Shown here piece by piece: positions 3,803 through 20,043 of a stretch of 55,899 nucleotides of DNA. Position numbers and translations under genes: made by a program. The stretch covers positions 1 to 55,899 of the forward strand of contig JAFWSI010000062.1 of NCBI GenBank assembly GCA_017519415.1, read 5' to 3'. The DNA comes from Ruminococcus sp. (GTDB lineage: Bacteria > Bacillota > Clostridia > Oscillospirales > Ruminococcaceae). The notes under the pieces were generated by a model that saw only the letters and a list, made by a program, of their open reading frames with translations, did not search any database and was not told where the DNA came from. Position 1 is the first letter of the stretch. Every line of letters begins with the position of its first letter.

Positions 3803-4540
3803 TCATAATATGCCCTCGGCTGCTTCCCTGATCCTCTTGCTGTAGTAATCGGGCTGCCAGAGGAAATCAAAATCCCTCAGGAGGTTGAGACAGCTCTCGG
3901 CGTTTCCGAGGGCGCCTTCAAGACCGTCCTTGTCGCCTGCGCGGGCAAAGATATATACCACGGTTATGAATATCTCAAGGAGAGTGGTATCGTTCTTGCC
4001 GCGGGGCTTGTAGCCGAACTTCAGGAGCTTGAGCGCCTGGGAGTACTTTTTGGCGGCACAGTCGGTCAGGGCAAGAGCCATATACAGCTTTGCCTTGCGC
4101 TGGAGCGTTACCTTCTCGGAATGCTTCTGCATGAAGTTGATGTTGTAGGTGCGGAAATCCTCCGCGTCACGCCATCTGCCAAGCTTGCTGAGGGTCTTCA
4201 GCATCTCTATGCAGTATTCAAACCTCTCGTCGCTGTTCATCTTTTTTTCCGTGAGCATCTCAAGATAGAAAAGAGCCATTTTGCTGTCGTGCATCCTGTC
4301 GTACATCGAAGCCAGCTGGATTATATCAAAGGGTGCGGGCTTCTTGGCGTTATCTATAAGCGCGTCCGCATAGTTCTCGCAGACTTCCTTGCAATAGCCG
4401 TTGTTTGCGAATTCGAAGTATACATCGCCGTATTTTTTTATCTCCGTGTTTCCCGCCAGGAGCGGAAATCCCATCTTTTTTCTTTCAGCCGGTGACAACA
4501 TAAGCCTGCCCCTCCCATCTATAATAGGCTGTCTGTGCAA
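3803..4540 (-). CDS. Hypothetical TPR-like helical-repeat protein
   Basis: This 245-residue soluble protein has no signal peptide or membrane segment. The sequence is rich in helical pairs with an A-L-Y spacing (e.g. DIIQLASMYDRMHDSKMALF, KAKLYMALALTDCAAKKYSQ), as in tetratricopeptide repeats, so a protein-binding scaffold is likely. The ATG at 4540 is used here. A second ATG 13 codons in (MLSPAERK) is also possible. It is a single-gene unit with its own terminator. I do not recognise the family and no function can be given. Confidence 0.7.
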   Translation of the reverse strand: MHRQPIIDGRGRLMLSPAERKKMGFPLLAGNTEIKKYGDVYFEFANNGYCKEVCENYADALIDNAKKPAPFDIIQLASMYDRMHDSKMALFYLEMLTEKKMNSDERFEYCIEMLKTLSKLGRWRDAEDFRTYNINFMQKHSEKVTLQRKAKLYMALALTDCAAKKYSQALKLLKFGYKPRGKNDTTLLEIFITVVYIFARAGDKDGLEGALGNAESCLNLLRDFDFLWQPDYYSKRIREAAEGIL

Positions 4541-4871: not shown

Positions 4872-5540
4872 ATGAGGATACTCGTTGTAGAGGATGAAAT
4901 ATAGCTTGCCGACGCTCTGTCGGAGATTCTTAAAAGAAATATGTACAATGTGGATACGTCCTATGACGGCATAGGCGGGCTCGATAACGCCCTCACCGAT
5001 ATGTATGACTGTATCATACTCGATATAATGCTTCCCGGCATGAGCGGGCTGGAGGTCCTGAGGAATATGCGCAGAGAGCATATCAACACTCCCGTTCTTC
5101 TCCTGACGGCAAGAAGCGAGGTGGAGGACAAGATCAACGGCCTGGACTGCGGTGCGGACGACTATCTCACCAAGCCCTTCGTTACGGGGGAGCTTCTCGC
5201 AAGAGTAAGGGCTCTCACAAGAAGAAAGGGCGAGATCGTTGACGAGCACAGGCTCGATTACAACGGCCTCGAGCTCAATAAGGATACCTGCTCTATCATC
5301 TGGCAGGGCAACGACGTAAAGCTCTCACTCAAGGAGTACCAGATAATGGAGCTCCTTATCTCCAATCCTCACCAGATCCTTCCCAAGGAGAGGATCATCG
5401 AGAAGATATGGGGCTATGAGAGCGATGTTGAATACAATAACATAGAGGTCTACATATCATTTCTCAGGAAAAAACTTTCCGCTATCTCGGCTCCCGTTCA
5501 GATCAAGACGGCAAGAGGTATCGGATATTCGCTTGAGTAG
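4872..5540 (+). CDS. OmpR/PhoB-type response regulator with in-frame amber at codon 11
   Basis: From the ATG at 4872 the frame reads MRILVVEDEI, then TAG (4902-4904), then LADALSEILKRNMYNVD to a stop at 5538-5540 (222 positions). The receiver keeps the acidic pocket (E7, D8, E9), phospho-acceptor D51 (CIILDIMLP), T79 and K101 (LTKPF). The DNA-binding winged helix ends in the usual RGIGYSLE. Gln is common at the position of the TAG and CAG is one transition away. Terminating at TAG gives 10 residues. Starting at the next ATG (4941) would remove the acidic pocket and the first strand and helix. The histidine kinase gene follows after 14 bases. Its natural stop is also TAG and overlaps the kinase ribosome site. 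It is either a recent nonsense mutant or read through. Confidence 0.85.
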
Positions 5541-5554
5541 GAGGAGGGGTTTGT

Positions 5555-7678
5555 ATGCGTGGAAAAGCACATGATTCAATGTTCAGAAAAGCTCAGATGA
5601 AGCTGTTTTCCATGATCGTAAGTATCCTGCTGGCTATATTTATCGCTCTTATCGGCTCTATAAACGTTATCACAAAGGCAGTTATGAACCAGCAGTCCAA
5701 GGACGTTCTCAGGGAAATATCTTCTGATATGGAGTACGATGAGAATACCCATATTTTCGGGTTCACCAAGCCGCTGAGCTCCGAGTCGAAGGACAAACAG
5801 GAGACGTCTTCATCAAAGCCGTCCCATGCGGCGACTACCAAGGAGAATGTAACTACGGCGGAGCCTACTACCTCTGTGGCTCCTTCAACGTCTGCTGCTC
5901 CTACGGATTCCGTGACCGATCCCCAGATCGAGGGAGAGGAGCCCGACATCGGTGAGGAGCTCGTAGAGCCCGATGATCCGTATGTACCGGAGAACGATCC
6001 TACGGAGCCCCCTCAGCAGAATACGGAGGCCAAGACGGATTTCAACATGAGTCCCGAGGAATGGTGGAAGCAGTTCGGACAAGGTATGTATCAGAGCGGA
6101 ACGGGCTACTATGATCCGTTCAATATCTATGATCCCGCTAATCCCTACAATAAGTACAATCCCGCAAGTCCGTACTATGACGCCGATGCCGCTGCGGCAG
6201 CAGGAGCTGCCGGAGGCTCCGGATGGAACGGCGGCGACCAGAAATGGGACAATAACTTCCATAATTACAACAACTACGGTTTCGGCGGCTTCCCCAAGTC
6301 CTATGACAGCGAGAAGACCACGGAAAACAATAATAATAACTACTACGCTTTCGGCAACCCATACAATAATCCGTACTACAATCCCTACTATAACCCCTAT
6401 TACAACTACAATAACAACAAGAAGACCGCGGTCAACGACCCGGAGTCTCAGGCAAACCGTGAGGTTCCTTCCGGGGAGGAGGACGTGATATTCCAGACGG
6501 CCTACTGCGGTGAGAAGGTACCGGACGGCTTTACCGTGCTGGGAAATTCTTCCGGAACTGCCGGGGTGAGACAGCTGGCGGCCGCTCCCGCGGACAATGA
6601 CGGCGGGCAGGCGAGCATTGCGGATTCCTACAGCTATGAGGCTTCAAATATGACCGCCCAGGTGAGCCAGCCTATCCCGAGGACCTTCGGCTCCATAGAA
6701 TACTTCGTTATCATGGCCGATACCGAGGGCAATTACCTTGATACCTTCCTCAATGACGAGATCAAGGAGGAAAAGGCTCAGAGATACATTACGGCTATAC
6801 TCGGCAGCAGCGCCGAGACGGGAATGATAAATTCCTATCAGTATTTACAGGCGGATAAGAGCAACGGCACAATGATAGTGCTCACCGACAAGAGCCATGA
6901 GATGGATATGCTCAAACAGCTAAAACGTACCACTATCATAATAGGCGCTATCGCGCTTATAATCCTTTCGGTGCTGGCTTACTTTCTCAGCAAGAAGAGC
7001 ATCCAGCCTATCAAGGTGGCCTTCAACAAGCAGAAGCAGTTCGTTTCCGACGCAAGCCATGAGCTCAAGACTCCTCTGACTGTAATTGCTACCAACGCTG
7101 ACGTTCTTGAGGGCGAGATAGGCGAGAACAAGTGGCTCAATTACATAAAGGCTCAGACAGACCGTATGAGCGTTCTGGTGAACGATCTCCTGAATCTTAC
7201 GAGAATGGAGAACAATACCACCGACGTTATCTTCAGTGAATTCGACCTGAGCAAGGCCATAACCAATACGGCTCTGCCCTTTGAGTGTCAGGCCTTCGAG
7301 TCCAACAAGACCTTCGAGGTCGATGTTTAGGAGGGTATCACCATAAACGGCAGCGAAAAGCACATAAAACAGATGGCGGCGATATTCATCGACAATGCTC
7401 TCAAGTATTCCAACGACGGCGGTACGGTAAGAGTTTCGCTGAAGCGTATCGGCGACAAGAAGGTGCTGTCGGTATTCAATACAGGCTCCGGTATCAGGGA
7501 GTCCGACAAGGAAAAGATATTCGAGCGTTTCTACCGCAGCGACGAGTCGAGAAACCGTGCTACCGGCGGTTACGGTCTGGGACTTGCCATAGCAAAATCC
7601 ATTATCGACAGGCATAAGTTCAAGGTCAGCGTTATGAACCAGCCCGGCAAGAGCATATGCTTCATGGTTACTATGTAA
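5555..7678 (+). CDS. Membrane sensor histidine kinase with Asn/Tyr-rich sensor and in-frame amber
   Basis: The frame from ATG 5555 runs 591 codons to TAG at 7328-7330. It continues in the same frame to TAA at 7678, 707 residues in all if the TAG is read. One membrane segment is near residues 17-40 and a second near 459-480, bracketing a large extracellular part. That part has Thr/Ser/Pro-rich and Asn/Tyr-rich stretches with repeated NPYY units. The dimerisation helix has the phospho-accepting H502 (FVSDASHELKTPLTV). Beyond the TAG lie the N-box (N614 in IDNALKYS), GSGI, FERFYRSDESR and GYGLGLAIAKSI of the ATPase domain. Termination at TAG leaves no ATP-binding domain and so no kinase activity. 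The TAG overlaps AGGAGGG, so separate translation of the ATPase half is conceivable, but no ATG stands at a suitable distance. Confidence 0.85.
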
Positions 7679-7690
7679 TTCTGTAATGTA

Positions 7691-7718
7691 AAAGAGCACC
7701 CGCAGGGTGCTCTTTTTT
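7691..7718 (+). terminator. Terminator of the two-component operon
   Basis: GAGCACCC (7694-7701) and GGGTGCTC (7705-7712) form a stem with a three-base loop, flanked by A and T runs. It begins 13 bases after the kinase stop. Confidence 0.85.
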
Positions 7719-7757
7719 CAGCGGAAGCTGCATATGTAAAACCGGAATGACGGGGAG

Positions 7758-7786
7758 TTGCATTTTATATTATGATATGTTATAAT
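7758..7786 (+). promoter_or_regulatory. Promoter for the leader and CNNM gene
   Basis: TTGCAT (7758-7763), 17 bases, then TATAAT (7781-7786). Transcription would begin near 7793, giving a leader of nearly 190 bases before the CNNM gene. Confidence 0.7.
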
Positions 7787-7812
7787 AATAGAAAAGTTAA
7801 ATCAAAAAGGAG

Positions 7813-7983
7813 ATGAAAACAGCAATGGACGGTGCCCCCGACGGCAGTAATCCTGATAATTACATTTATCGCTTCGTTGAATATGTGATATTAAGGCATG
7901 GTCTGCACTACCGTTTGTGTTAGGCTGTGCCTTTAAGAGGGTGTACGGATAAAAATACTATTTTAACGGAGGATATGAAATGA
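7813..7983 (+). other. Leader of the CNNM gene with possible small reading frame containing TAG
   Basis: The leader holds a frame from ATG 7813 (or ATG 7825) preceded by AAGGAG. It meets TAG at 7921-7923 after 36 codons. If TAG is passed, the frame runs another 19 codons and its TGA (7981-7983) overlaps the ATG of the next gene, as in translational coupling. The peptide has no recognisable family. The same RNA can also form hairpins (e.g. AAGGCA ... TGCCTT near 7893-7933), so a structured regulatory leader is an equal alternative. Evidence for translation is weak. Confidence 0.3.
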
Positions 7984-9308
7984 TAGGGCAGATAATTCTG
8001 CAGATCGTACTTATAGCTCTCAATGCGGTTTTTGCCTGCGCGGAGGTGGCTGTCATCTCCATAAACGACGTCCGTCTTGAGAAGCTTGCGGCAAGCGGGA
8101 ACAAAAAAGCGTTAAGGCTCAAGAAGCTCACCGATACTCCCACCCGCTTCCTTGCGACCATTCAGGTCGCCATAACACTTGCCGGCTTCATAGGCGCCGC
8201 CTTTGCTGCCGACAGCTTTTCCGAATACCTTACGGCTGCCATTGCCAGAACAGGCATAGGCATTCCCGCAGCCGTGCTGAAGAAAATAGCAGTCGTCATA
8301 ATCACGGTGATACTTTCGTACTTCACCCTTGTCTTCGGCGAGCTCATACCCAAGCGGGCGGCTATGAAGGATCCCGAAAAAACTGCCCTTGCACTGAGCA
8401 GCACAGTTTCCTTTGTGGCTAAGCTCTTCGCGCCTATGGTATGGCTGCTGAACGCTTCCGCAAACGGCATACTCAGACTCATGGGCATAGATCCCGACAG
8501 CGAGGACGATACGGTAACCGAGGAGGAAATACTCATGATGTCCGACGCGGGTGCGGAGAAAGGCACCATTGACGAGGACGAGAACCGTATCATAAAGAAT
8601 ATTTTCGCCTTTGACGATATGACAGCAGGACAGGTCTGTACCCACAGGACGGACGTGGACGTGCTATGGAGCAGTGATGACATCAGCGTGTGGGAGGAGA
8701 CTATCCACCGCACAAGACATTCCGCCTTTCCCATTTGCGGCGACAGCGTGGATAACGTTATAGGCGTGCTCAACGCCAAGGACTACTTCCGCCTCGACGA
8801 CAAGAGCCGTGAGAATATCATGGCCAACGCCGTCCGCGAGCCCTGCTTTGTCCATGAGAATATGAAGGCCGACAGGCTCTTCGATCAGATGAAGCAGAGA
8901 GGCGCTGATCATTTTGCGGTAGTCGTGGACGAGTACGGCGGAATGAGCGGTATCATCACCATTACCGACCTCGTTGAGGAGCTTGTGGGCGACTTCGCCG
9001 ACGATCCCGAGGACGAGCCCGCAGTAAGGCTCGAGCAGACGGGGGAGGACACATGGACAGTTCCCGGTATAAGCTCCCTCAGCGACGTATGCGAGGAGCT
9101 TGAGGTCAGGCTCCCTGCGGATAAGTTCGATACCTTCGGCGGCTACGTTATAGCGGAGCTGGGCGAGATACCCAAGGACGGGTCGCAGCTCTCCCTCGAC
9201 GCGGACGGACTGCATATCGATGTGCTGGAGGTAAAGCACCACCGCATAGAGGTGTGCCGCGTGACAAAGCTCCCCTCCGAGGAAAAGGAAGACGGAGAGG
9301 AAGAATGA
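7980..9308 (+). CDS. CNNM/CorC-type membrane protein with CBS pair (hemolysin C family)
   Basis: This is a 442-residue membrane protein. The first 145 residues hold the CNNM (DUF21) membrane domain, with helices such as IILQIVLIALNAVFACAEVA and ITLAGFIGAAFAA and the family motif FGELIPKRAA. Two CBS domains follow at about 205-325 (HSAFPICGD, FAVVVDEYGGMSGIITITDL). A CorC/HlyC C-terminal domain runs from about 340 to 425. Members export or regulate magnesium or other divalent cations in the plasma membrane. GGAGG lies 10 bases before the ATG. The tail is very acidic (EEKEDGEEE). The old name hemolysin is historical. Confidence 0.92.
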   Translation: MIGQIILQIVLIALNAVFACAEVAVISINDVRLEKLAASGNKKALRLKKLTDTPTRFLATIQVAITLAGFIGAAFAADSFSEYLTAAIARTGIGIPAAVLKKIAVVIITVILSYFTLVFGELIPKRAAMKDPEKTALALSSTVSFVAKLFAPMVWLLNASANGILRLMGIDPDSEDDTVTEEEILMMSDAGAEKGTIDEDENRIIKNIFAFDDMTAGQVCTHRTDVDVLWSSDDISVWEETIHRTRHSAFPICGDSVDNVIGVLNAKDYFRLDDKSRENIMANAVREPCFVHENMKADRLFDQMKQRGADHFAVVVDEYGGMSGIITITDLVEELVGDFADDPEDEPAVRLEQTGEDTWTVPGISSLSDVCEELEVRLPADKFDTFGGYVIAELGEIPKDGSQLSLDADGLHIDVLEVKHHRIEVCRVTKLPSEEKEDGEEE

Positions 9309-10877: not shown

Positions 10878-13800
10878 ATGAAGCTTTTCAAGGATATTTT
10901 TTCAGAGCTGGCAGGCTTCAGGAGCCTGCGGGAAGCCATAGACAAGCATATATCACCCGTCTCCGTGACGGGTCTTTCCCATATACACAGGGCTCAGCTG
11001 ATATACTCGCTGGGAAGCGGCAGGACCGACCTTGTGATAACGGGCACGGAGGCAGAGGCCAAGAAGCTCTGCGACGACATCAATATGATGGCGGGCGCGG
11101 AGGAGGCTGTGCTCTTCCCCTCAAAGGAGCTGGTATTCACTCCCGTCGACAGCACAAACCACGAGTACGAGCATATGCGTATAGCCGCCCTAATTAAGGC
11201 GGCTAAAAGTCGTTGCAGCGTTATCTGTGCCAGCATCGAGGCGGTCATGCAGCCCGTTATTCCCGTGGGAGTCCTCATTGCCGCAGGTATCGAGCTCAGG
11301 CAGGGACAGGAGATAAGTCTCACGGAGCTTTCCGTGACTCTTGCAAGGTGCGGCTATCAGCGCTGCGAAAAGGTAGAGGGAGCATCGCAGTTCTCTGTTC
11401 GCGGCTCTATCCTCGACATATTCCCCGTGCAGTCCGATAAGCCGGTGCGTATAGAGCTCTGGGGAGACGAGATAGACAGCATATCCGAGTTTGAGACCGA
11501 TACCCAGCGCCGCACCGACGCTCTTGAGACGGTGGAGATATACCCCTCGGGAGAGGTGCTCTACGACAACGAGGAGCTTGCGGACAGGATAGAGGAGCTC
11601 TGCAAAAAGGTCCGCGGCAAGCGCATGGAGGCAGTCCGAGAGCACCTGGGAGCGGACGTTCACAGGCTCAGGGCAGGGGAGATATTGGCTCACAGCGTCA
11701 AATACTATCCCCTTGTATACGGCGAACCCTCCACGGTTTTCGACTACATCGGCGGGATAGTGCTTTTCAGCGATTATTCCGACATTATGGACAACGCCGC
11801 GGGAGTTCTTGCCCACCACAATGAGGACGTGAAGATACTCATGGAGGACGGTCAGCTCTGCAAGGGACTGGACGGCTATGTGCTGGAGCTCCCCGAGATA
11901 CAGCACCGCGCCGAGAAGCGGGTCTGCCTTTATATGAGCAGCTTCATGCAGGGCGGAGAGCGTATCGACTTCCGCAGACTTGTGAGCTTCGAGGCAATGC
12001 AAACCGCACCGTGGAGCGGCGAGATGAAGCAGCTCATAGAGGATCTGGAGGACTACAGGCGCCGCGGATACCGCATGATACTGGCAGCAGGCAGCGAAAA
12101 GACCCTCCCCATAATACAGCAGGATCTTAACGAAAAGGGCATTCCCTGCGACCTTGCCGAACATAACATCGAGCCCGCTGCGGGCAGGGTTGTGCTCATG
12201 TCGGGCAGCTTCGGCGGCGGCTTCGAGTATCCCGAGAACAGGACCGTTCTTATAACTCAGGGACGCGCCATGGACTCGGTCCGCAGAAAGCGCCGCAAAA
12301 AGAAGAACAAGGCCGAGGAGATACGCTCCCTTGCGGATATAACCGAGGGCGATCTCATAGTTCATTCCGGTCACGGTATAGGACGCTTCATCGGTATCCG
12401 CAAGCTTGAAATGGACGGCGTCACCAAGGATTACATCACCATACAGTATGCAGGCACGGATAAGCTCTATATACCCGTAACTCAGCTGGATATGGTGTCG
12501 AAGTATATAGGTCCCCGCGACGACAGCGGAGTTAAGCTCAGCAAGCTCAGCTCGGGCGAATGGCAGAAGACCAGAAGCAACGTAAAACGCGCCGTCAAGG
12601 ACATGGCTCACGAGCTCATTGCCCTCTATGCAAAGCGGGAAAAGAGCGTGGGCTTTGCCTTCTATCCCGACGACGAGATACAGCACGATTTCGAGGAGCG
12701 CTTCCCCTATGTGGAGACCGACGACCAGCTCACTTCAATTGCCGAGATAAAGGCGGACATGGAGCGTCCGAGACCTATGGAGAGACTGCTCTGCGGCGAC
12801 GTGGGCTTCGGCAAAACAGAGGTGGCTTTCAGAGCTGCCATGAAATGCGTGCTTGCGGGAAAGCAGTGCGCTATCCTTGCGCCCACAACGGTACTTGCGT
12901 ATCAGCACTATCAGACGGCGCTCCGCCGCTTCGAGCACTTCCCCGTGAACATCGAGCTTCTCAGCCGTTACCGTACTCCGAAGCAGCAGGAGGAGATAAT
13001 AAAGAAGCTGAAGCAGGGCAGGATAGACCTGCTTATCGGCACTCACAAGATAATACAGAAGTCCGTGGTCTTTAAGGATCTTGGACTTGCCATAATCGAC
13101 GAGGAGCAGCGCTTCGGCGTTGCTCACAAGGAGAAGTTCAAGGAGAGCTTTGCGGGCGTGGACGTGCTCATGCTCTCCGCAACGCCTATCCCGAGGACAC
13201 TTAATATGGCTATGAGCGGAATACGGGATATGTCCGTCATCGAGGAGCCTCCTCAGGACAGATACCCCGTTCAGACCTACGTTATCGAGTTCAACATGGG
13301 TACGGTGATACAGGCCATAGTAAGGGAGCTTCGACGGGGCGGTCAGGTATATTATATCCACAACCGCGTGGAGACTATACGGGCCTGTGCTTCACGCTTG
13401 CAGGAGCTCCTCCCCGAGGCGCGTATCGCCGTTGCACACGGTCAGATGAGCGAGGACGAAATGTCCGATATATGGGAGCAGCTGGTGGAGCACGAGGTTG
13501 ACGTGCTGGTATGTACCACTATCATAGAGACAGGAGTGGACGTACCCAATGTCAATACCCTTATCATCGAGGACTCAGACCGCTTCGGACTTTCCCAGCT
13601 CTATCAGCTCCGCGGACGTGTGGGACGTTCCAACCGCAGGGGTTATGCCTATTTCACCTATCAGCGGGACAAGGTGCTGACGGAGATTGCCACCAAGAGA
13701 CTTAACGCGATGCGCGAGTTCACCCAGTTCGGCAGCGGCTTCAGGATAGCTCTCCGCGACCTCGAGATAAGAGGTGCGGGAAGTATTCTCGGCGGCAGAC

Positions 13801-14339
13801 AGCACGGTCACATGGAAGCTGTTGGATACGATATGTACTTACAGCTTCTCTCCGAAGCCATAGCCGAGGAAAAGGGCATACAGCCCGAAAAGGTTCCCGA
13901 GTGCCTTGTGGATATTCAGATAGACGCCCATATCCCCGAAAAGTATATACCCAGCCTCAATCAGCGTATAGATATGTACCGCAAGATAATGCTGGTCAAC
14001 GAGGACAGCGACAAGACAGACCTTATAGACGAACTCATAGACCGTTACGGCGAACCGCCGAAGTCGGTGGTGGGACTTATAGACGTATCCCTCCTGAGAA
14101 ACAAGGCGGCTCATCTCGGTATTACGGAAATATCACAGAAAAACGGCGCCATGTACTTCTATACCGAGTACCTCGTACCTGACCAGATAGTGGGGCTCCA
14201 GAAGGCCTACAAGGGCAGGATAGCCTTCAACGGTGCAGGAAAATCCTACGTATCAGTGAAAATATCCCCTAAGGTCCGTCCCTTTGATATGATGAAGGAG
14301 ACTGTGGAGATAATATATCAGAACAGGGAGCAGAAGTGA
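10878..14339 (+). CDS. mfd: Transcription-repair coupling factor
   Basis: Mfd is a DNA translocase that removes RNA polymerase stalled at lesions and recruits UvrA. The 1153 residues match the family length. The order is: UvrB-like N-terminal modules (FSVRGSILDIFPVQ), a CarD/RNA-polymerase-interacting domain near 475-560 (GDLIVHSGHGIGRFIGI), and a RecG-like helicase. The helicase has Walker A GDVGFGKTEVA near 640, DEEQ near 741 (AIIDEEQRFGV), LSATPIPRT and QLRGRVGRS. The TRCF C-terminal domain ends the protein. It starts 16 bases after pth with a GGAG site. Confidence 0.97.
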   Translation: MKLFKDIFSELAGFRSLREAIDKHISPVSVTGLSHIHRAQLIYSLGSGRTDLVITGTEAEAKKLCDDINMMAGAEEAVLFPSKELVFTPVDSTNHEYEHMRIAALIKAAKSRCSVICASIEAVMQPVIPVGVLIAAGIELRQGQEISLTELSVTLARCGYQRCEKVEGASQFSVRGSILDIFPVQSDKPVRIELWGDEIDSISEFETDTQRRTDALETVEIYPSGEVLYDNEELADRIEELCKKVRGKRMEAVREHLGADVHRLRAGEILAHSVKYYPLVYGEPSTVFDYIGGIVLFSDYSDIMDNAAGVLAHHNEDVKILMEDGQLCKGLDGYVLELPEIQHRAEKRVCLYMSSFMQGGERIDFRRLVSFEAMQTAPWSGEMKQLIEDLEDYRRRGYRMILAAGSEKTLPIIQQDLNEKGIPCDLAEHNIEPAAGRVVLMSGSFGGGFEYPENRTVLITQGRAMDSVRRKRRKKKNKAEEIRSLADITEGDLIVHSGHGIGRFIGIRKLEMDGVTKDYITIQYAGTDKLYIPVTQLDMVSKYIGPRDDSGVKLSKLSSGEWQKTRSNVKRAVKDMAHELIALYAKREKSVGFAFYPDDEIQHDFEERFPYVETDDQLTSIAEIKADMERPRPMERLLCGDVGFGKTEVAFRAAMKCVLAGKQCAILAPTTVLAYQHYQTALRRFEHFPVNIELLSRYRTPKQQEEIIKKLKQGRIDLLIGTHKIIQKSVVFKDLGLAIIDEEQRFGVAHKEKFKESFAGVDVLMLSATPIPRTLNMAMSGIRDMSVIEEPPQDRYPVQTYVIEFNMGTVIQAIVRELRRGGQVYYIHNRVETIRACASRLQELLPEARIAVAHGQMSEDEMSDIWEQLVEHEVDVLVCTTIIETGVDVPNVNTLIIEDSDRFGLSQLYQLRGRVGRSNRRGYAYFTYQRDKVLTEIATKRLNAMREFTQFGSGFRIALRDLEIRGAGSILGGRQHGHMEAVGYDMYLQLLSEAIAEEKGIQPEKVPECLVDIQIDAHIPEKYIPSLNQRIDMYRKIMLVNEDSDKTDLIDELIDRYGEPPKSVVGLIDVSLLRNKAAHLGITEISQKNGAMYFYTEYLVPDQIVGLQKAYKGRIAFNGAGKSYVSVKISPKVRPFDMMKETVEIIYQNREQK

Positions 14340-14415
14340 CCGCAATTTTTGAACAAAGAGCAACAATTGTATAATGTGCTGAAAAATATGTATGCTTTTT
14401 TGGCTGATATGTTAC

Positions 14416-14444
14416 TTTACAGTAGGGCTTTTTTGTGCTACAAT
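14416..14444 (+). promoter_or_regulatory. Promoter for the coiled-coil lipoprotein
   Basis: TTTACA (14416-14421), 17 bases, then TACAAT (14439-14444), about 50 bases before the ATG at 14497. Confidence 0.6.
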
Positions 14445-14496
14445 GTTTCTTGAAAACAAAGAATATCCGCTTTTAAGGGAAAAAGGAGATACAGAT

Positions 14497-15579
14497 ATGG
14501 ATTACAGAAGAATTATTGCAGGAGCTGCGGTTCTTGCAATTGCCGCCTATTCCGCAGGCTGCGCGGACAAAAAGAAGCCGGAGACCGATTCAATGGTCAG
14601 TGAGACTACCACGGAATCGACAACCGCCGAGGTCACTACCGAGGAGCCGAGAGAGCAGCCCATGCCCGTTGAGGCTTCCGACCCCAATGCAGTTACCTTT
14701 GACGACGGCGAGTACGGCTTCGCCTCAGCAAAAAGCGACGATCCGGACTGCGCTTCGGGAACGCTTTCCGTTGTGGAGCTCTTCGGAAATAAGATGCTGA
14801 AATTCACGGACGACAATACCGTTCCTCTCAAGGGAAAGGTGCAGAAGATAAGCATAAACGCCGTAAAGCTCCTTGGCACAGAGGGCGCCGCAAAGGTGCG
14901 CAGGATAGAGTTCGATGTGTATGCGCAGGCTACTGCGGATCACCTTTCCACCGATGACGCCGACGGAGTAAGAGCTCCCGGCTGGATAGGAGGCGGCGGA
15001 GGAACAGTTACCGCAAGCGATGATAAATGGTACGATTTCCAGGCCTTTGAGGGCGGAGAGTATGAGTTCGAGACCTCGGGAAACGTCCATGCGGTTTTCA
15101 AGTTCCTGCTTGCCGACGGCGGACTGTGCTGGACCGAGGATATGGAGGACGCAAACTTCCTTATCATGCGCTGGGGTATTGCCAACGAGTCGGATATGTA
15201 TATAGATAATATCGTCTTCTATGACGAGGACGGAAAGTCCATACCTGTCGTTACAGGCAAGTCCGAAACGGAAAAGCTGAAGGAGGCTGCAATGGAAAAG
15301 GCTTCCGAGGTCAGGGCAGAGTTTGACGAAAAGGCAGAAAATGCAAAAGCCGAGTATGAAAAGTCTGTGGAAGAAATGCAAGCCGAGTATGAAAAGGCTG
15401 TTGCCGATATGAAGGCTAAGTTTGAAAAAAGCAAGAACGATTTTGAGAACTCCGAGGAGTATGAAAAGGTCAAGGCCAAGATCGAAGAGGCCGAGGCTAA
15501 GCTCAAAGAGGATTCTGAAAAGGCAAGGACAGCTATCGAAGAGGCTTCAAAGGCTATTGAAGAAGCAAAGAAAAAGTAA
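14497..15579 (+). CDS. Lipoprotein with C-terminal charged coiled coil
   Basis: The start at 14497 is chosen because AAAGGAG precedes it and it begins a clear lipoprotein signal, MDYRRIIAGAAVLAIAAYSA, with the cysteine at residue 22. A short Thr/Glu spacer follows. A central domain (residues about 65-245) has the look of a beta-sandwich, perhaps carbohydrate-binding like those in ruminococcal proteins. From about 265 to 360 is a long Lys/Glu/Ala helix with heptad spacing and repeated AEYEKSVEEM-type units, predicted to be a coiled coil. The protein is anchored outside the cell. Its binding target is unknown. Confidence 0.8.
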   Translation: MDYRRIIAGAAVLAIAAYSAGCADKKKPETDSMVSETTTESTTAEVTTEEPREQPMPVEASDPNAVTFDDGEYGFASAKSDDPDCASGTLSVVELFGNKMLKFTDDNTVPLKGKVQKISINAVKLLGTEGAAKVRRIEFDVYAQATADHLSTDDADGVRAPGWIGGGGGTVTASDDKWYDFQAFEGGEYEFETSGNVHAVFKFLLADGGLCWTEDMEDANFLIMRWGIANESDMYIDNIVFYDEDGKSIPVVTGKSETEKLKEAAMEKASEVRAEFDEKAENAKAEYEKSVEEMQAEYEKAVADMKAKFEKSKNDFENSEEYEKVKAKIEEAEAKLKEDSEKARTAIEEASKAIEEAKKK

Positions 15580-15615
15580 AAAAATCGCTTCCGTGTATGC
15601 GGAAGCGATTTTTGA
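15580..15615. terminator. Bidirectional terminator between converging genes
   Basis: A 14-bp stem AAAAATCGCTTCCG/CGGAAGCGATTTTT (15580-15593 with 15600-15613) has a six-base loop. Its A and T flanks let it end both the lipoprotein transcript and the leftward Xre operon. Confidence 0.85.
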
Positions 15616-15618
15616 TTA

Positions 15619-15831
15619 TCAGTCAAAATAAAATATGTCCTCAAATTTCTTGTCGAGAGCAATGCAGAGTATCAGTGCCAGCTTAGCCGTGGGACTGAAC
15701 TGCCCCGTTTCTATGGAGCTTATGGTATTGCGGGATACTCCCACCATTTTGGCAAGCTCGTCCTGTGATAGCCTTTGCTCTTTTCGTATCTCCTTGAGGC
15801 GGTTCCGGAGTATAAGTGAATCGTCTATCAT
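15619..15831 (-). CDS. Xre-family helix-turn-helix regulator (Cro-like)
   Basis: This 70-residue protein is essentially one HTH domain. Residues 8-64 contain RLKEIRKEQRLSQDELAKMV, the recognition helix VSRNTISSIETG and SPTAKLALILCIAL. It is the last gene of a leftward four-gene set, starting four bases after the preceding membrane gene. Small regulators of this type often bind their own promoter. Three matching palindromes overlap the promoter at 16907-16978, so autoregulation of the whole operon is likely. Confidence 0.9.
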   Translation of the reverse strand: MIDDSLILRNRLKEIRKEQRLSQDELAKMVGVSRNTISSIETGQFSPTAKLALILCIALDKKFEDIFYFD

Positions 15832-15835
15832 ACTG

Positions 15836-16174
15836 TCACCCCATTTTATCTATAAGCGAGGTTACTTCGCAGAATGCCGCGAAGCCGAACCACAGTGCGA
15901 AAAAAACAGTTCCTGCAATTATCGGGAGCCTATGCTTTTTAGTGCTTTTAAAGCACATATACAGTCCCATAATAAAAGGAGCGCTGAAAATGACGGTCAT
16001 CAGACCGATGTTGTATTCACCGTAAATGCGGTGCTCTGCAAGAAGGATAACATCTGCCAGAAGCATAACTGCTATCAGGGTAAAGGTAGTCATTTTCTTG
16101 ATAACTTCTAATTCGGGAAGATCCTGATTCTTGTTTTCCTTACGGCTTTTTTTCAGTATTTCTTTCTTATCCAT
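15836..16174 (-). CDS. Small membrane protein, DUF6442-like (third copy)
   Basis: This 112-residue protein has a charged cytoplasmic N-terminus, MDKKEILKKSRKENKNQDLP, and then four hydrophobic segments (e.g. TLIAVMLLADVILLA). The N-terminal pattern KKEILxKSRxENxNxD is shared with the two genes upstream, so the three are paralogues from tandem duplication. I associate the pattern with DUF6442 proteins that sit beside Xre regulators. Function unknown. Confidence 0.8.
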   Translation of the reverse strand: MDKKEILKKSRKENKNQDLPELEVIKKMTTFTLIAVMLLADVILLAEHRIYGEYNIGLMTVIFSAPFIMGLYMCFKSTKKHRLPIIAGTVFFALWFGFAAFCEVTSLIDKMG

Positions 16175-16186
16175 TGTATATCCCTC

Positions 16187-16516
16187 TTACGGTTTGATAT
16201 TGAAAAGCTCGCATATTCCGATGAAAGCGGGGATAAGAAAGGTGAAACCCGAGACCGCTGCCAACAAAATATCCGTGGCTTTTTTGCTTTTTATTGCTCT
16301 GTAAAGCCACATGGAGAACGTCATGCAGAATTCCGTAGCGATAACAGCGTAATTAACTCGGCTTGTAGCGATTATGGACAGCATAGTCCATAATGCCGTG
16401 AAAGCCATACTGATTATTAAAGCGAATCTTGCAGCGCTTTTGAAATGGTCTATCTCCGCAATATCGCGGTTCTTGTTTTCCTGTCGGCTTTTTTTAAGTA
16501 TTTCTTCCTTGTTCAT
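16187..16516 (-). CDS. Small membrane protein, DUF6442-like (second copy)
   Basis: This 109-residue paralogue begins MNKEEILKKSRQENKNRDIA and is followed by about four membrane segments (FALIISMAFTALWTMLSIIA, LLAAVSGFTFLIPAFIGI). AAGGAGG lies just before the ATG. It is separated from its neighbours by 12 bases on each side, which indicates cotranscription. Function unknown. Confidence 0.8.
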   Translation of the reverse strand: MNKEEILKKSRQENKNRDIAEIDHFKSAARFALIISMAFTALWTMLSIIATSRVNYAVIATEFCMTFSMWLYRAIKSKKATDILLAAVSGFTFLIPAFIGICELFNIKP

Positions 16517-16528
16517 TATCTTTCCTCC

Positions 16529-16861
16529 TTAAAGTACAGAGCGGTCCATGATGTCGATAATTGCAAGCATGATGACGATGAATGTTGTGGTTCCCCACAA
16601 TATGGCAGCAGGCCTGTGCCTGACGCTTTTGAATTTAACAGCCTTGCATATGCTTATGGTAAAGTTTACGAAGGCGAGAACGCTCCATAAGCTGTAATTC
16701 ATGTGATCCGTTATCAGCGCTTCTATGAGAAAAATAATGCCTGCGTATATGACTGCGGATATAAGTGCGAATTTTGCGGCGCTCTTGCTGTTTTCGATCT
16801 CCGCAATATCGCGGTCCTGATTTTCCTGTCGGCTTTTGGCCAGTATTTCTTCTTTATTCAT
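16529..16861 (-). CDS. Small membrane protein, DUF6442-like (first copy)
   Basis: The first gene of the operon encodes 110 residues. The start at 16861 is preferred over an in-frame ATG seven codons upstream because GGGAGG lies at the right distance and the protein then begins MNKEEILAKSRQENQDRDIA like its two paralogues. Four hydrophobic segments follow. It stands directly behind the operator-bearing promoter. Function unknown. Confidence 0.8.
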   Translation of the reverse strand: MNKEEILAKSRQENQDRDIAEIENSKSAAKFALISAVIYAGIIFLIEALITDHMNYSLWSVLAFVNFTISICKAVKFKSVRHRPAAILWGTTTFIVIMLAIIDIMDRSVL

Positions 16862-16906
16862 AAATGTTACCTCCCATATCATGCAAAGTTTTATTGTCAG
16901 TTTTTG

Positions 16907-16978
16907 ACAAGTATACTTGGTAACTGTATTATAGCACTGCCAAGTGTACTTGTCAATACTTTGCTAAGTAAACTTGTC
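16907..16978. promoter_or_regulatory. Three palindromic operator sites (consensus AAGTnnACTT)
   Basis: Site 1 ACAAGTATACTTGG (16907-16920) lies at the transcription start. Site 2 CCAAGTGTACTTGTC (16940-16954) overlaps the -35 box. Site 3 CTAAGTAAACTTGTC (16964-16978) lies just upstream. Core centres are about 33 and 24 bases apart. The pattern suits a dimeric Cro-like repressor, most simply the Xre protein encoded at 15619-15831. Confidence 0.75.
16928..16956 (-). promoter_or_regulatory. Promoter of the Xre/DUF6442 operon
   Basis: On the minus strand TTGACA (16951-16956), 17 bases, then TATAAT (16928-16933). It is a full consensus promoter, with palindromic sites over the -35 region, in the transcribed start region and upstream. 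Confidence 0.8.
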
Positions 16979-17054
16979 ATTTTCGTGATTTTTAACAATC
17001 GGGCGGTGCGTATATGGTTGCATATGCACAAAATAAAGCCATTAGCCGTTAGCT

Positions 17055-17402
17055 TGTAGGAGCCGGCGTCGCCGACAGCCCATTTTGCGGGACGCCTTCA
17101 CTTGCAAGGCGTCCCTCTTTCAAAAACAGTCCACCGGACTGTTTTTGAAATTCACCCTTGCGAAGCGCCTTCGTTATTTGGGCTCTGCCCAAACCCGCCA
17201 GAGGCGCTGCCTCTGACCTTACCGGTACGTCCCCTCTGTCCTTTGGACATCTCCCCATCTTATGGGGAGTCACTCCGCCAAAGGAACACAGTCCCTTTGG
17301 AATTCCATTCATGGTCGTGTGTTGATATAAAAAGGCACCGTGAAAATACGGTGCCTTAAATATTTATGTATTAACGGGACGTCGAGGACGCCGTTCCCTA
17401 CA
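17055..17402. repeat. MITE-like noncoding element bounded by inverted 27-base repeats
   Basis: The stretch begins TGTAGGAGCCGGCG (17055-17081 block) and ends with a divergent inverted copy, finishing CCGTTCCCTACA (17376-17402). Inside are further palindromes: gggacgcc/ggcgtccc near 17089-17117, caaaaacagtcc/ggactgtttttg near 17131-17155, and AAGGCACCG/CGGTGCCTT at 17332-17357. No gene is supported. Terminal inverted repeats, internal palindromes and lack of coding suggest a small non-autonomous element or composite of dispersed repeats. No target-site duplication is evident. Confidence 0.55.
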
Positions 17403-17433
17403 ATTGGTCATTTTAAATAAGTATGAAATCTGC

Positions 17434-17460
17434 GGAACGCCGAGGGCGGCGTTCCCTACA
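17434..17460 (+). repeat. Extra copy of the 27-base palindromic repeat
   Basis: GGAACGCCGAGGGCGGCGTT begins this copy, which ends CCCTACA. It forms a clean 8-bp stem (GGAACGCC/GGCGTTCC). It is closely related to 17376-17402 and to 42472-42498. Confidence 0.7.
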
Positions 17461-17464
17461 CAGC

Positions 17465-17492
17465 AAAAAGGCGAACCGAATGGTTCGCCTTT
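17465..17492 (-). terminator. Terminator of the GH94 gene
   Basis: The stem AAAGGCGAACC/GGTTCGCCTTT (17467-17477 with 17482-17492) has a four-base loop and ends on the minus strand in a T run, just past the GH94 stop. Confidence 0.85.
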
Positions 17493-17507
17493 AATTATGC
17501 ATTGAAA

Positions 17508-19925
17508 TTATCCGAGAACTACCTTTATCTCATTAACATCAGCCAGTTTATCGGCAGGAACATAGTTGCCTGCAAGCTTTTCGCCGTTGAGGATAAGCTC
17601 CTTGACGCCGCTCTGTACGTGTGCGGAGTTGTCAACAGTGATGCTGAGCTTCTTGCCGCGGAAGTTCTTCTCGATCCTGAAGCCGTCCCACTTAGCGGGG
17701 ATAGACGGAGCGATAGCAAGTCCGCCGAGGTCGGGTCTCATGCCGCAGATACCCTCGACACAGCCTACCATTACAGTAGAAGCTGTACCTGTGAGCCAGT
17801 GAACGTGTGAACGTCCCTCGTAGGGAGAAGCCTTTGACTCGGTGAACTGACCGTGTACATAGGGCTCCATAACGCGTATCTCAGCCTTGTCGTTCATGGC
17901 TGCGGGAGAGCTTTCAAGGAAGTACTCGAATGCGCGGTCGCCGTGGCCGAGAAGAGCCTCGGCAAGTATGAGCCAGCCCTGAGACTGGGAGAAGATTCCG
18001 CCGTTTTCCTTTGTATCGAGGTTGAATACCTGCATGAGAGCGCCCTTGAAGTGGTGGTACTTGTAAGGCGGCTCAAGGAGCTTAGCTCCGTAAGGTGTAT
18101 TGAGTATATCATGAACGCTGTTCATGGCCTTTTCAGCCTGTTCCTCTGAGGCAAAACGGGAAATAACCGACCAGCTCTGAGGATTGAGCCACATATTGGC
18201 CTCGGGATCCTTCTTTGCACCGACGATAACGCCGTTGTCGCGGATACCGCGGATAAATCTGTCCTCGTCCCAGCACTTTCCGAGAGCTGCCGCAAGCTTC
18301 GCCTTTTCGCCGCCGATGAATGCGATATATTCGCTGTCGCCGCGGAGAGAAGCAAGCTCCTCCATAACGTTCATGGCGTAATAAAGCTGGAAGGCAACGA
18401 AGGTGGACTCGCCCTGTGCGCCCAGACGGAGACAGTCGTTCCAGTCTGCGTGGAGACCTGCGGGCATATCGTGGCTGCCCAGTCTTTCAAGAGAGAAGCG
18501 GATAGCGTTCTTCATGTGGTCGTATACGGTAGCCTTTCCGCCGCCCTCTTCTGCGTAGGTGATGACCTCGTCGAGGAAGTCCTTGTTGCCGCTCTCACCG
18601 AGGTACTTCACGATAGTGGGGAAGAGCCACAGTGCGTCGTCTGCACGGTATGAGGGGTGGCCTGTTTCCTTTGCGTAGACGCTGTGCTCGTCGTTTTCGT
18701 CGGGACAGGTCTCGTGACCTGCGTTGTGATCGAACTTAACGAGAGGAAGTCCGCCGCCGTTGCTCACCTGGGCGGAGAGCATGAAGCGTATCTTCTCTGC
18801 TGCCATTTCGGGATCAAGGTGTATGATGCCCTGTATATCCTGTACAGTATCGCGGTAGCCGTAGCCGTTTCTCAGTCCGCAGTATACGAAAGAAGCTGCT
18901 CTTGACCAGATGAATGTGATGAAGCACTGGTAAGCGTTCCATACGTTTATCATGTTGTTGAATTCGTCGGAGGGAGTTTCTACCATGAAGTTGGAGAGCT
19001 GGCCGTGCCAGTAGTCCTTTAACTGCTTGACCTCTGCGTCTACCTTTCCTGCTGTCTTGTATTCCTCAAGTATAGCGGCAGCCTCGGTGTCATTTCGCTC
19101 GCCGAGCACGAAGATGAACTCCTTTGTCTCTCCGGGTGCGAGAGTTATATCGCTCTGGAGAGCGCCGCAGGAATTGGAGTTATAATTCATAACGCCGCTG
19201 CACCTGCCGTTCTCTACAGCTATAGGATTTGAGAAGGTCCTGTAGGTGCCGATGAAATCGCTGAAGCTTCCGCAGCAGCCTGTAACGGGCTGTCCCACCA
19301 TGCCGAAGAAGCGCTCCTTGCCGTTGTAGCCGTTCTCGTCGAAGCCCGTGTTCTCGTTCATGTGCTGGATTATCCTGTTGCCGCCCTCAAAGCTTGTACG
19401 GGTGATGAACAGCGTGTACTGGAGGTTTACCTGATCCTGCTCGTAGTTAGGCTCGTTGGTGAACTCGATGAAGCCGAATACTGAGAGCTTTCTCTCCTTT
19501 GAGGAGTTGTTTGTCACTTTGGCTCTCCATACCTCATAGGTTTTTCCGTAGGGAACGTAATAGGTAGTCTCGGACTTTATGTCGGCGTACTCTGCCGAGA
19601 TCACGGTATATGCGGTGCCGTGGCGGCATTCGCTCCTGTACTTGTCAAGGGGCTTGCCTACGGGCTGCCATGAGGCCGACCAGTAGTCGGCGGTATCGTT
19701 GTCTCTTATATATATGTAACGTCCCGGAAGCGCCATATCCGAATTGAAGCGGAAACGTGAAAGTCTTCCGTTGGCGCCCGATTTGACGAAGCTGTAGCCT
19801 GCCGCGTTGTTGGAGATCATCGCGCCGTACTCGGGGTCTCCGAGGTAATTTGCCCAGGGTGCGGGCGTTGCGGGGTTTGTGATGACATATTCTTTGTTTT
19901 TCAGATCGAAATGTCCGTACTGCAT
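17508..19925 (-). CDS. GH94 glycoside phosphorylase, cellobiose phosphorylase-like
   Basis: This 805-residue cytoplasmic enzyme is of the inverting GH94 family. Members split beta-glucosides with phosphate to give alpha-glucose-1-phosphate, saving ATP in cellulose breakdown. The N-terminus MQYGHFDLKNKEYVITNPAT matches the family start and AAAAGGAG lies before the ATG at 19925. The catalytic Asp lies in HADWNDCLRL (DWNDC at 494-498). Substrate-site segments include YRDTVQDIQG, NPQSWSVIS and HWLTGTAST. Cellobiose is the simplest substrate. The segment VMEPYVHGQFTESKASPY differs from cellobiose phosphorylases as I remember them, so another disaccharide (e.g. an acidic glucoside) is possible. It is a single-gene unit with its own promoter and terminator. 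Confidence 0.9.
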   Translation of the reverse strand: MQYGHFDLKNKEYVITNPATPAPWANYLGDPEYGAMISNNAAGYSFVKSGANGRLSRFRFNSDMALPGRYIYIRDNDTADYWSASWQPVGKPLDKYRSECRHGTAYTVISAEYADIKSETTYYVPYGKTYEVWRAKVTNNSSKERKLSVFGFIEFTNEPNYEQDQVNLQYTLFITRTSFEGGNRIIQHMNENTGFDENGYNGKERFFGMVGQPVTGCCGSFSDFIGTYRTFSNPIAVENGRCSGVMNYNSNSCGALQSDITLAPGETKEFIFVLGERNDTEAAAILEEYKTAGKVDAEVKQLKDYWHGQLSNFMVETPSDEFNNMINVWNAYQCFITFIWSRAASFVYCGLRNGYGYRDTVQDIQGIIHLDPEMAAEKIRFMLSAQVSNGGGLPLVKFDHNAGHETCPDENDEHSVYAKETGHPSYRADDALWLFPTIVKYLGESGNKDFLDEVITYAEEGGGKATVYDHMKNAIRFSLERLGSHDMPAGLHADWNDCLRLGAQGESTFVAFQLYYAMNVMEELASLRGDSEYIAFIGGEKAKLAAALGKCWDEDRFIRGIRDNGVIVGAKKDPEANMWLNPQSWSVISRFASEEQAEKAMNSVHDILNTPYGAKLLEPPYKYHHFKGALMQVFNLDTKENGGIFSQSQGWLILAEALLGHGDRAFEYFLESSPAAMNDKAEIRVMEPYVHGQFTESKASPYEGRSHVHWLTGTASTVMVGCVEGICGMRPDLGGLAIAPSIPAKWDGFRIEKNFRGKKLSITVDNSAHVQSGVKELILNGEKLAGNYVPADKLADVNEIKVVLG

Positions 19926-20043
19926 AAATACATTCTCCTTTTTATCTGCCTTGCGGGAGCTTTTCCCTGCGGCAGAAATACGGCCTGCCTTTATTTGTCC
20001 GTACATACGGCATATTATCGGCGGCCTTGTTTATTTCAAAATA

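Follow-up and report, generated by a model that had tools for sequence, protein, structure and literature searches.

The DHp and ATPase halves of EnvZ work in trans, and in crAss-like phages TAG is recoded to Gln (NCBI code 15). In-frame stop codons are widespread in bacterial genes with a dN/dS below 1, where they are mostly short-lived, and a column with TAG against CAG has been displayed for Paenibacillus, according to those parts of Belinky et al. (2021, PMC7918605) that are drawn on here.

We describe an OmpR/PhoB-type response regulator and an adjoining histidine kinase, each interrupted ahead of its natural end by one in-frame stop, which in both cases is TAG. The two genes lie in a stretch of 55,899 nucleotides (the window), which belongs to a Ruminococcus assembly of 2.48 Mb that comprises 75 contigs and is 74.9% complete. 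The most similar named kinases come from Ruminococcus flavefaciens and other Ruminococcus assemblies, many of them derived, to judge by their titles, from the rumen, and a limited literature search returned nothing on this locus or on TAG readthrough in Ruminococcus.

We hypothesise that the two genes form a dispensable signalling pair that nonsense mutation has inactivated very recently, with TAG acting as an ordinary terminator, and consider this to be probably correct. One gene of the pair would first have gained a nonsense mutation, at which the pathway stops, and the partner gene, released from constraint, would then have gained the second, TAG terminating as usual in both. The pairing of the lesions in one operon would follow from the shared function of the two proteins, since, with either partner inactive, the other is no longer kept from decaying.

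The interrupted regulator and kinase

The regulator frame (4872-5540, plus strand) encodes a receiver and a winged-helix DNA-binding domain, both of which are recognised by Pfam when the frame is read through its single internal stop (Response_reg, 2.3e-28; Trans_reg_C, 8.1e-23). That stop is the TAG at codon 11 (4902-4904), so the sequence-only reading, made from the DNA letters and their open reading frames, was right that the neighbour of the kinase is also interrupted by TAG. In an alignment of 34 distinct sequences from Ruminococcus and its near kin the column is CAG in all 33 others; among more distant regulators CAT predominates, and CAA, AGT, GGT and AAG occur as well. The natural end is itself a TAG (5538-5540), an ordinary stop that is shared by the regulators of 7 of 39 relatives (duplicates not removed). 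Termination at codon 11 would leave a peptide of 10 residues; the most that could be made is a product restarted at Met24, which would be without the first strand and the acidic pocket of the receiver.

The membrane sensor histidine kinase frame (5555-7678, plus strand) has 707 residues, and codon 592 (7328-7330) is a TAG and its sole internal stop. With this TAG read as a residue, Pfam places a HisKA (DHp) domain at residues 493-553 (7031-7213), before the stop, and a HATPase_c domain at residues 600-705 (7352-7669), after it, where the frame is open for 115 codons and then ends in TAA. The phospho-accepting His is codon 502 (7058-7060). A single amber between the H-box and the ATPase domain, 90 codons past this His, had been reported from the sequence-only reading, and these coordinates are correct. 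We also agree with that reading that termination here would abolish kinase activity, as the product would end after the DHp domain and be unable to autophosphorylate. The arrangement is that of a two-component system, with a HisKA and HATPase_c kinase adjoining a receiver and DNA-binding regulator (Pfam).

Ahead of the kinase core, window positions 5735-6844 (residues 61-430) encode a low-complexity region rich in Asn, Tyr and Pro, and the kinases of relatives have 324-491 residues of similar composition ahead of theirs. Upstream and divergent of the pair, on the minus strand (3803-4540), is a protein of 245 residues for which neither Pfam nor NCBIfam gives a match. A similar protein is listed near the pair in 40 of 55 relative loci, a set that includes some duplicates. 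Elsewhere in the window, at 16187-16882 on the minus strand, two small DUF6442 proteins adjoin in the same frame.

It had been proposed that both TAGs stand at CAG-like positions, which would make two of them in one signalling pair a striking coincidence, and CAG in close relatives had been named as the sign that would count against that interpretation. For the regulator both the CAG-like position and the sign are found (33/33 Ruminococcus-group sequences). At the kinase the proposal breaks down, because in the core alignment of 30 distinct sequences its TAG column is Glu or Asp in 28 of the 29 others and CAG in none (GAC 12, GAG 11, GAT 4, GAA 1, GTC 1). That both stops are TAG is not very odd either. 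With this codon usage, a single base change that creates a stop most often creates TAG, as it does for 45 of the 77 possible routes in the regulator, for 152 of the 242 in the kinase and for 51.5% of those over the sampled genes. What does exceed scatter is the co-occurrence of both TAGs in one operon. In a homology scan with 407 relative proteins (best hit at least 45% identity; 86,597 codons), eight internal-stop rows were obtained, namely the two TAGs of the window pair and six TAAs that were judged by eye to be leaders or junctions ahead of start codons; across these codons no frameshift was called and no other internal stop was kept. A looser scan (559 queries, 136,450 codons) returned eight TAA rows, one TGA row and two TAG rows, the latter again being the window pair, and the non-TAG rows were judged by eye to be leaders or alignment ends.

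Apart from their stops the two genes look conserved. At columns that are invariant in relatives, the regulator has no private change in 136 and the kinase core has one in 95. The dN/dS of the regulator ranks 14th of 34, which is mid-range, that of the kinase core 5th of 30, and that of the part after the TAG 3rd of 30 (0.150, median 0.096), inside the range. We found no sign of relaxed selection elsewhere in the two genes, there being no excess of private changes, although a very recent loss would be invisible to such a comparison. If both genes had drifted freely between the two hits, the probability of no visible missense change would be 0.116 with the kinase hit second and 0.037 with the regulator hit second, and that of at most one would be 0.218 and 0.072, respectively. 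Of all the results this low drift probability speaks most strongly against simple slow decay; a loss that was recent or selected would be compatible with it, and so would an artefact or suppression. From the conservation of the genes, either the stops are very recent or the product is still made.

Distribution of the pair in the genus

We searched 125 genomes of the genus, the host assembly included, at a cut-off of E <= 1e-60. A regulator match was found in 115 of them, in one case to a 51% paralogue only, and a kinase-core match in 114. Among the matches listed, only the window's own regulator and kinase carry an internal stop, so that, as in a nonsense pseudogene, an essential domain that is kept in intact relatives is cut off here by an in-frame stop. 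The 68 good genomes include 65 with a regulator match and 64 with a kinase match. Three genomes that are at least 93% complete (G042, G046 and G111) have neither match at this cut-off; a fourth of at least the same completeness, G011, has no kinase match, and its regulator match is the 51% paralogue. Joint absence of the pair therefore occurs elsewhere in the genus, and from these four good genomes the pair appears to be dispensable. Since the regulator is nevertheless near-universal in the genus and the genes are conserved, inactivation must be either very recent or selected, and we infer the former.

TAG in the host genome

The way in which TAG is used elsewhere in the assembly is that of a stop. 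In a sample of 1.18 Mb, 56 of 934 predicted frames (6.0%) end in TAG, a few of them at the internal TAGs under discussion, compared with 56 of 834 (6.7%) in the comparison genome G035. Where a TAG-ended frame has a relative at 50% identity or more, it ends where the relative ends in 11 of 13 cases, one of which is the regulator. The median distance to the next in-frame stop is 16 codons after TAG, 16.5 after TAA and 11 after TGA, with no shortening after TAG. Over the whole assembly, the window regulator is the only gene with an internal stop among 10 HisKA, 41 ABC_tran and 22 Response_reg matches. Two features of a code of type 15 were not seen, as TAG is not rare or absent as a terminator (56/934 frames) and internal TAGs are not common at conserved Gln positions (one in the 73 domain matches, and two in 86,597 codons, of which one is at a Gln column). 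On this evidence TAG does not appear to be generally reassigned in the host genome.

Among 24 tRNA genes none has a CUA anticodon, many tRNAs being absent from this 75%-complete assembly, and tRNAs for Ala, Cys, Glu, Ile, Lys, Met and Trp were not found in it. Release factor 1 (prfA, TIGR00019) has no match above the cut-off, and the sole match below it is, from its sequence, presumably prfB. Nor does a 6 kb stretch of G035 with prfA in it have a match in the host assembly, an empty result that shows little without a control of its own, and the absence of prfA is best read as an assembly gap. In 83 of 100 genomes of the genus prfA is above the cut-off, and a loss of release factor 1 in the host was considered and rejected.

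We likewise reject programmed readthrough. The four best internal TAGs share no 3' base (C, G, A and T), and the RNA fold of the 90 bases 3' of the TAG is unremarkable in the regulator (z -0.63) and the kinase (z 0.17); for a Tim44-like gene with an internal TAG (described below) z is -1.48, and only an adhesin gene, also described below, stands out, with a z of -2.65 that 2 of 200 shuffles matched. Nor is the stop conserved, since among the matches listed TAG is found in the host genome only.

Other interrupted genes

Coding-potential scans covered up to 1.49 Mb of the host assembly, and the sample of kept lesions represents about 60% of it. Seven of the 16 host rows were kept by eye. Five of these are TAG, at window positions 4902 and 7328 and in L130, L233 and L256; one is TAA (L119) and one a doubtful TGA (L131). 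The nine rows that were dropped as junctions, leaders or non-coding were one TAG (L246), one TAA (L118) and seven TGAs. Five or more TAGs in seven has a probability of about 0.25 at the 51.5% route share and is, at a share near one half, unremarkable. Under the same criteria 1.2 Mb of G035 gave 12 rows (seven TGA, three TAA and two TAG), which were left unsorted and do not therefore provide a clean control.

Among the kept genes is a Tim44-like zinc-ribbon protein (L130, G000:C33:1-20000, 7589-8389, minus strand), one of three neighbouring paralogues, in which a TAG at 7952 separates positions 9-66 of the Pfam profile from positions 72-136. Its TAG column is CAG in four of five relatives (approximately 46-48% identical) and in both of its own paralogues, and GAG in the remaining relative. 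The second is a giant adhesin with SpaA repeats and an ice-binding-like character (L233, G000:C51:40001-60000, 11525-19999), of which more than 2,800 codons lie inside the stretch, with a single in-frame TAG (15668) near the stretch's middle.

The lesions of the host are not confined to TAG, which we count in favour of inactivation. A clear TAA interruption (5113) lies in a frame of 722 codons, towards the end of which there is a weak SH3 match (L119, G000:C22:50001-70000); the frame continues for 172 more codons with no start codon nearby. A tyrosine recombinase-like gene (L256, G000:C70:1-20000, near 6747, minus strand) has a TAG together with a frameshift read from its translation, and by its look would be a true pseudogene. 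The doubtful TGA is at 11301 of L131.

Alternative explanations

Next after inactivation we rank an error of assembly or consensus, or a mixture of strains in what is a metagenome-type assembly, such that one or both TAGs exist in no living cell. We place it here because only the one assembly carries the TAGs, and regard it as unlikely but as a serious rival. The TAGs rest on one sequence in an incomplete assembly of many contigs (75% and 75, as above), and most of the kept lesions in the sample are substitutions. Against this, the 86,597 homology-covered codons hold no other kept internal stop and no called frameshift, so that two errors in a single operon could be explained only if the error rate were high locally, and the regulator has no other private change at invariant columns.

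We consider it improbable that the lineage has an amber suppressor, for example a tRNA-Gln with a CUA anticodon, by which internal TAGs would be partly read and both proteins made. The proposal accounts for the conservation of both genes outside their stops, and for Gln being found at two of the three places where relatives show the residue (33 of 33 at the regulator, and four of five together with both paralogues at the Tim44-like protein). TAG makes up five of the seven kept internal stops, and TAG rows were commoner in the host than in G035 in an earlier scan (7/36 against 1/22, the rows being judged by eye only) and in a later one (6/16 against 2/12, the G035 rows being unsorted). Moreover, with prfA and the tRNAs for seven amino acids missing from the assembly, a suppressor tRNA could have gone unseen. 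However, the kinase column is Glu or Asp, a share of five or more in seven is expected about one time in four, the assembly has no CUA tRNA and its lack of prfA is best read as a gap. Furthermore, three large families show one TAG in 73 domain matches, TAG ends a share of frames near that of G035, L119 is clearly interrupted by TAA, and the recombinase-like TAG sits in a frameshifted gene. A hint of recoding that the TAG-split Tim44-like and adhesin genes had given was weakened once the wider scan added the TAA and the doubtful TGA, and TAG recoding as the best reading is rejected because TAG serves as a terminator, one gene is cut by TAA and the kinase column is Glu/Asp. A bolder form of the idea would be an early stage of ambiguous reassignment, in which a natural amber suppressor that has gone unseen, and that probably inserts Gln, keeps the pair, the Tim44-like protein and the adhesin partly expressed while TAG ends other genes; we think this slightly less probable still.

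Split translation, in which translation would begin anew after the TAG to give an ATPase half that acts in trans with the DHp half, as the halves of EnvZ do, is very improbable: the overlap of the kinase TAG with AGGAGGG (7329-7335) that had suggested it is real and the cut does fall between two domains, but the in-frame codon at good SD spacing is ATA and there is no standard start codon at that spacing, the sole candidate restart codon in the stretch checked (the first in-frame ATG, GTG or TTG) being the ATG at 7373-7375, 37 bases past the SD-like string and within the ATPase domain, while only 1 of 29 relatives has AGGAGG at the TAG position, the window lacks the ATG that 20 of 29 have four codons 3' of it, and a split kinase would be partnerless because the regulator is broken too.

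Comparison with known systems

If very recent nonsense inactivation is correct, the locus would be a small example of a signalling pathway lost as a unit, with both partners interrupted in one genome and open in most relatives. It also carries a caution, namely that in-frame ambers in two neighbouring genes are by themselves no sign of recoding where TAG is the commonest one-step nonsense codon. Amber suppression, if it were true, would provide one of the few views of TAG being decoded ambiguously in a cellular genome.

In domain order, operon layout and the possession of HisKA and HATPase_c the pair is like two-component systems of the OmpR/PhoB class, and its nearest curated models are RppA/RppB and PhoB/PhoR, with 1kgs as the closest solved chain. 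It differs from that class in reaching the curated cut-off of none of the NCBIfam models among the matches listed (25 of 75 and 25 of 93), in the long Asn/Tyr/Pro-rich region ahead of the kinase core, and in that both genes are interrupted. The regulator resembles the genes of code-15 crAss-like phages in having TAG where relatives have Gln; unlike in those phages, TAG here still ends about 6% of sampled frames and internal TAGs are very rare. There is also a likeness to the nonsense-interrupted genes in the cited parts of Belinky et al. (2021, PMC7918605): as in those, one in-frame stop lies in a gene that is conserved elsewhere, and the regulator has a TAG/CAG column. Compared with the cases given there, two adjacent genes of one pathway are interrupted here, and CAG is found in just one of their two columns. 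With these differences, the window pair fits the known kind of mostly short-lived nonsense-interrupted genes that those parts of the study describe.
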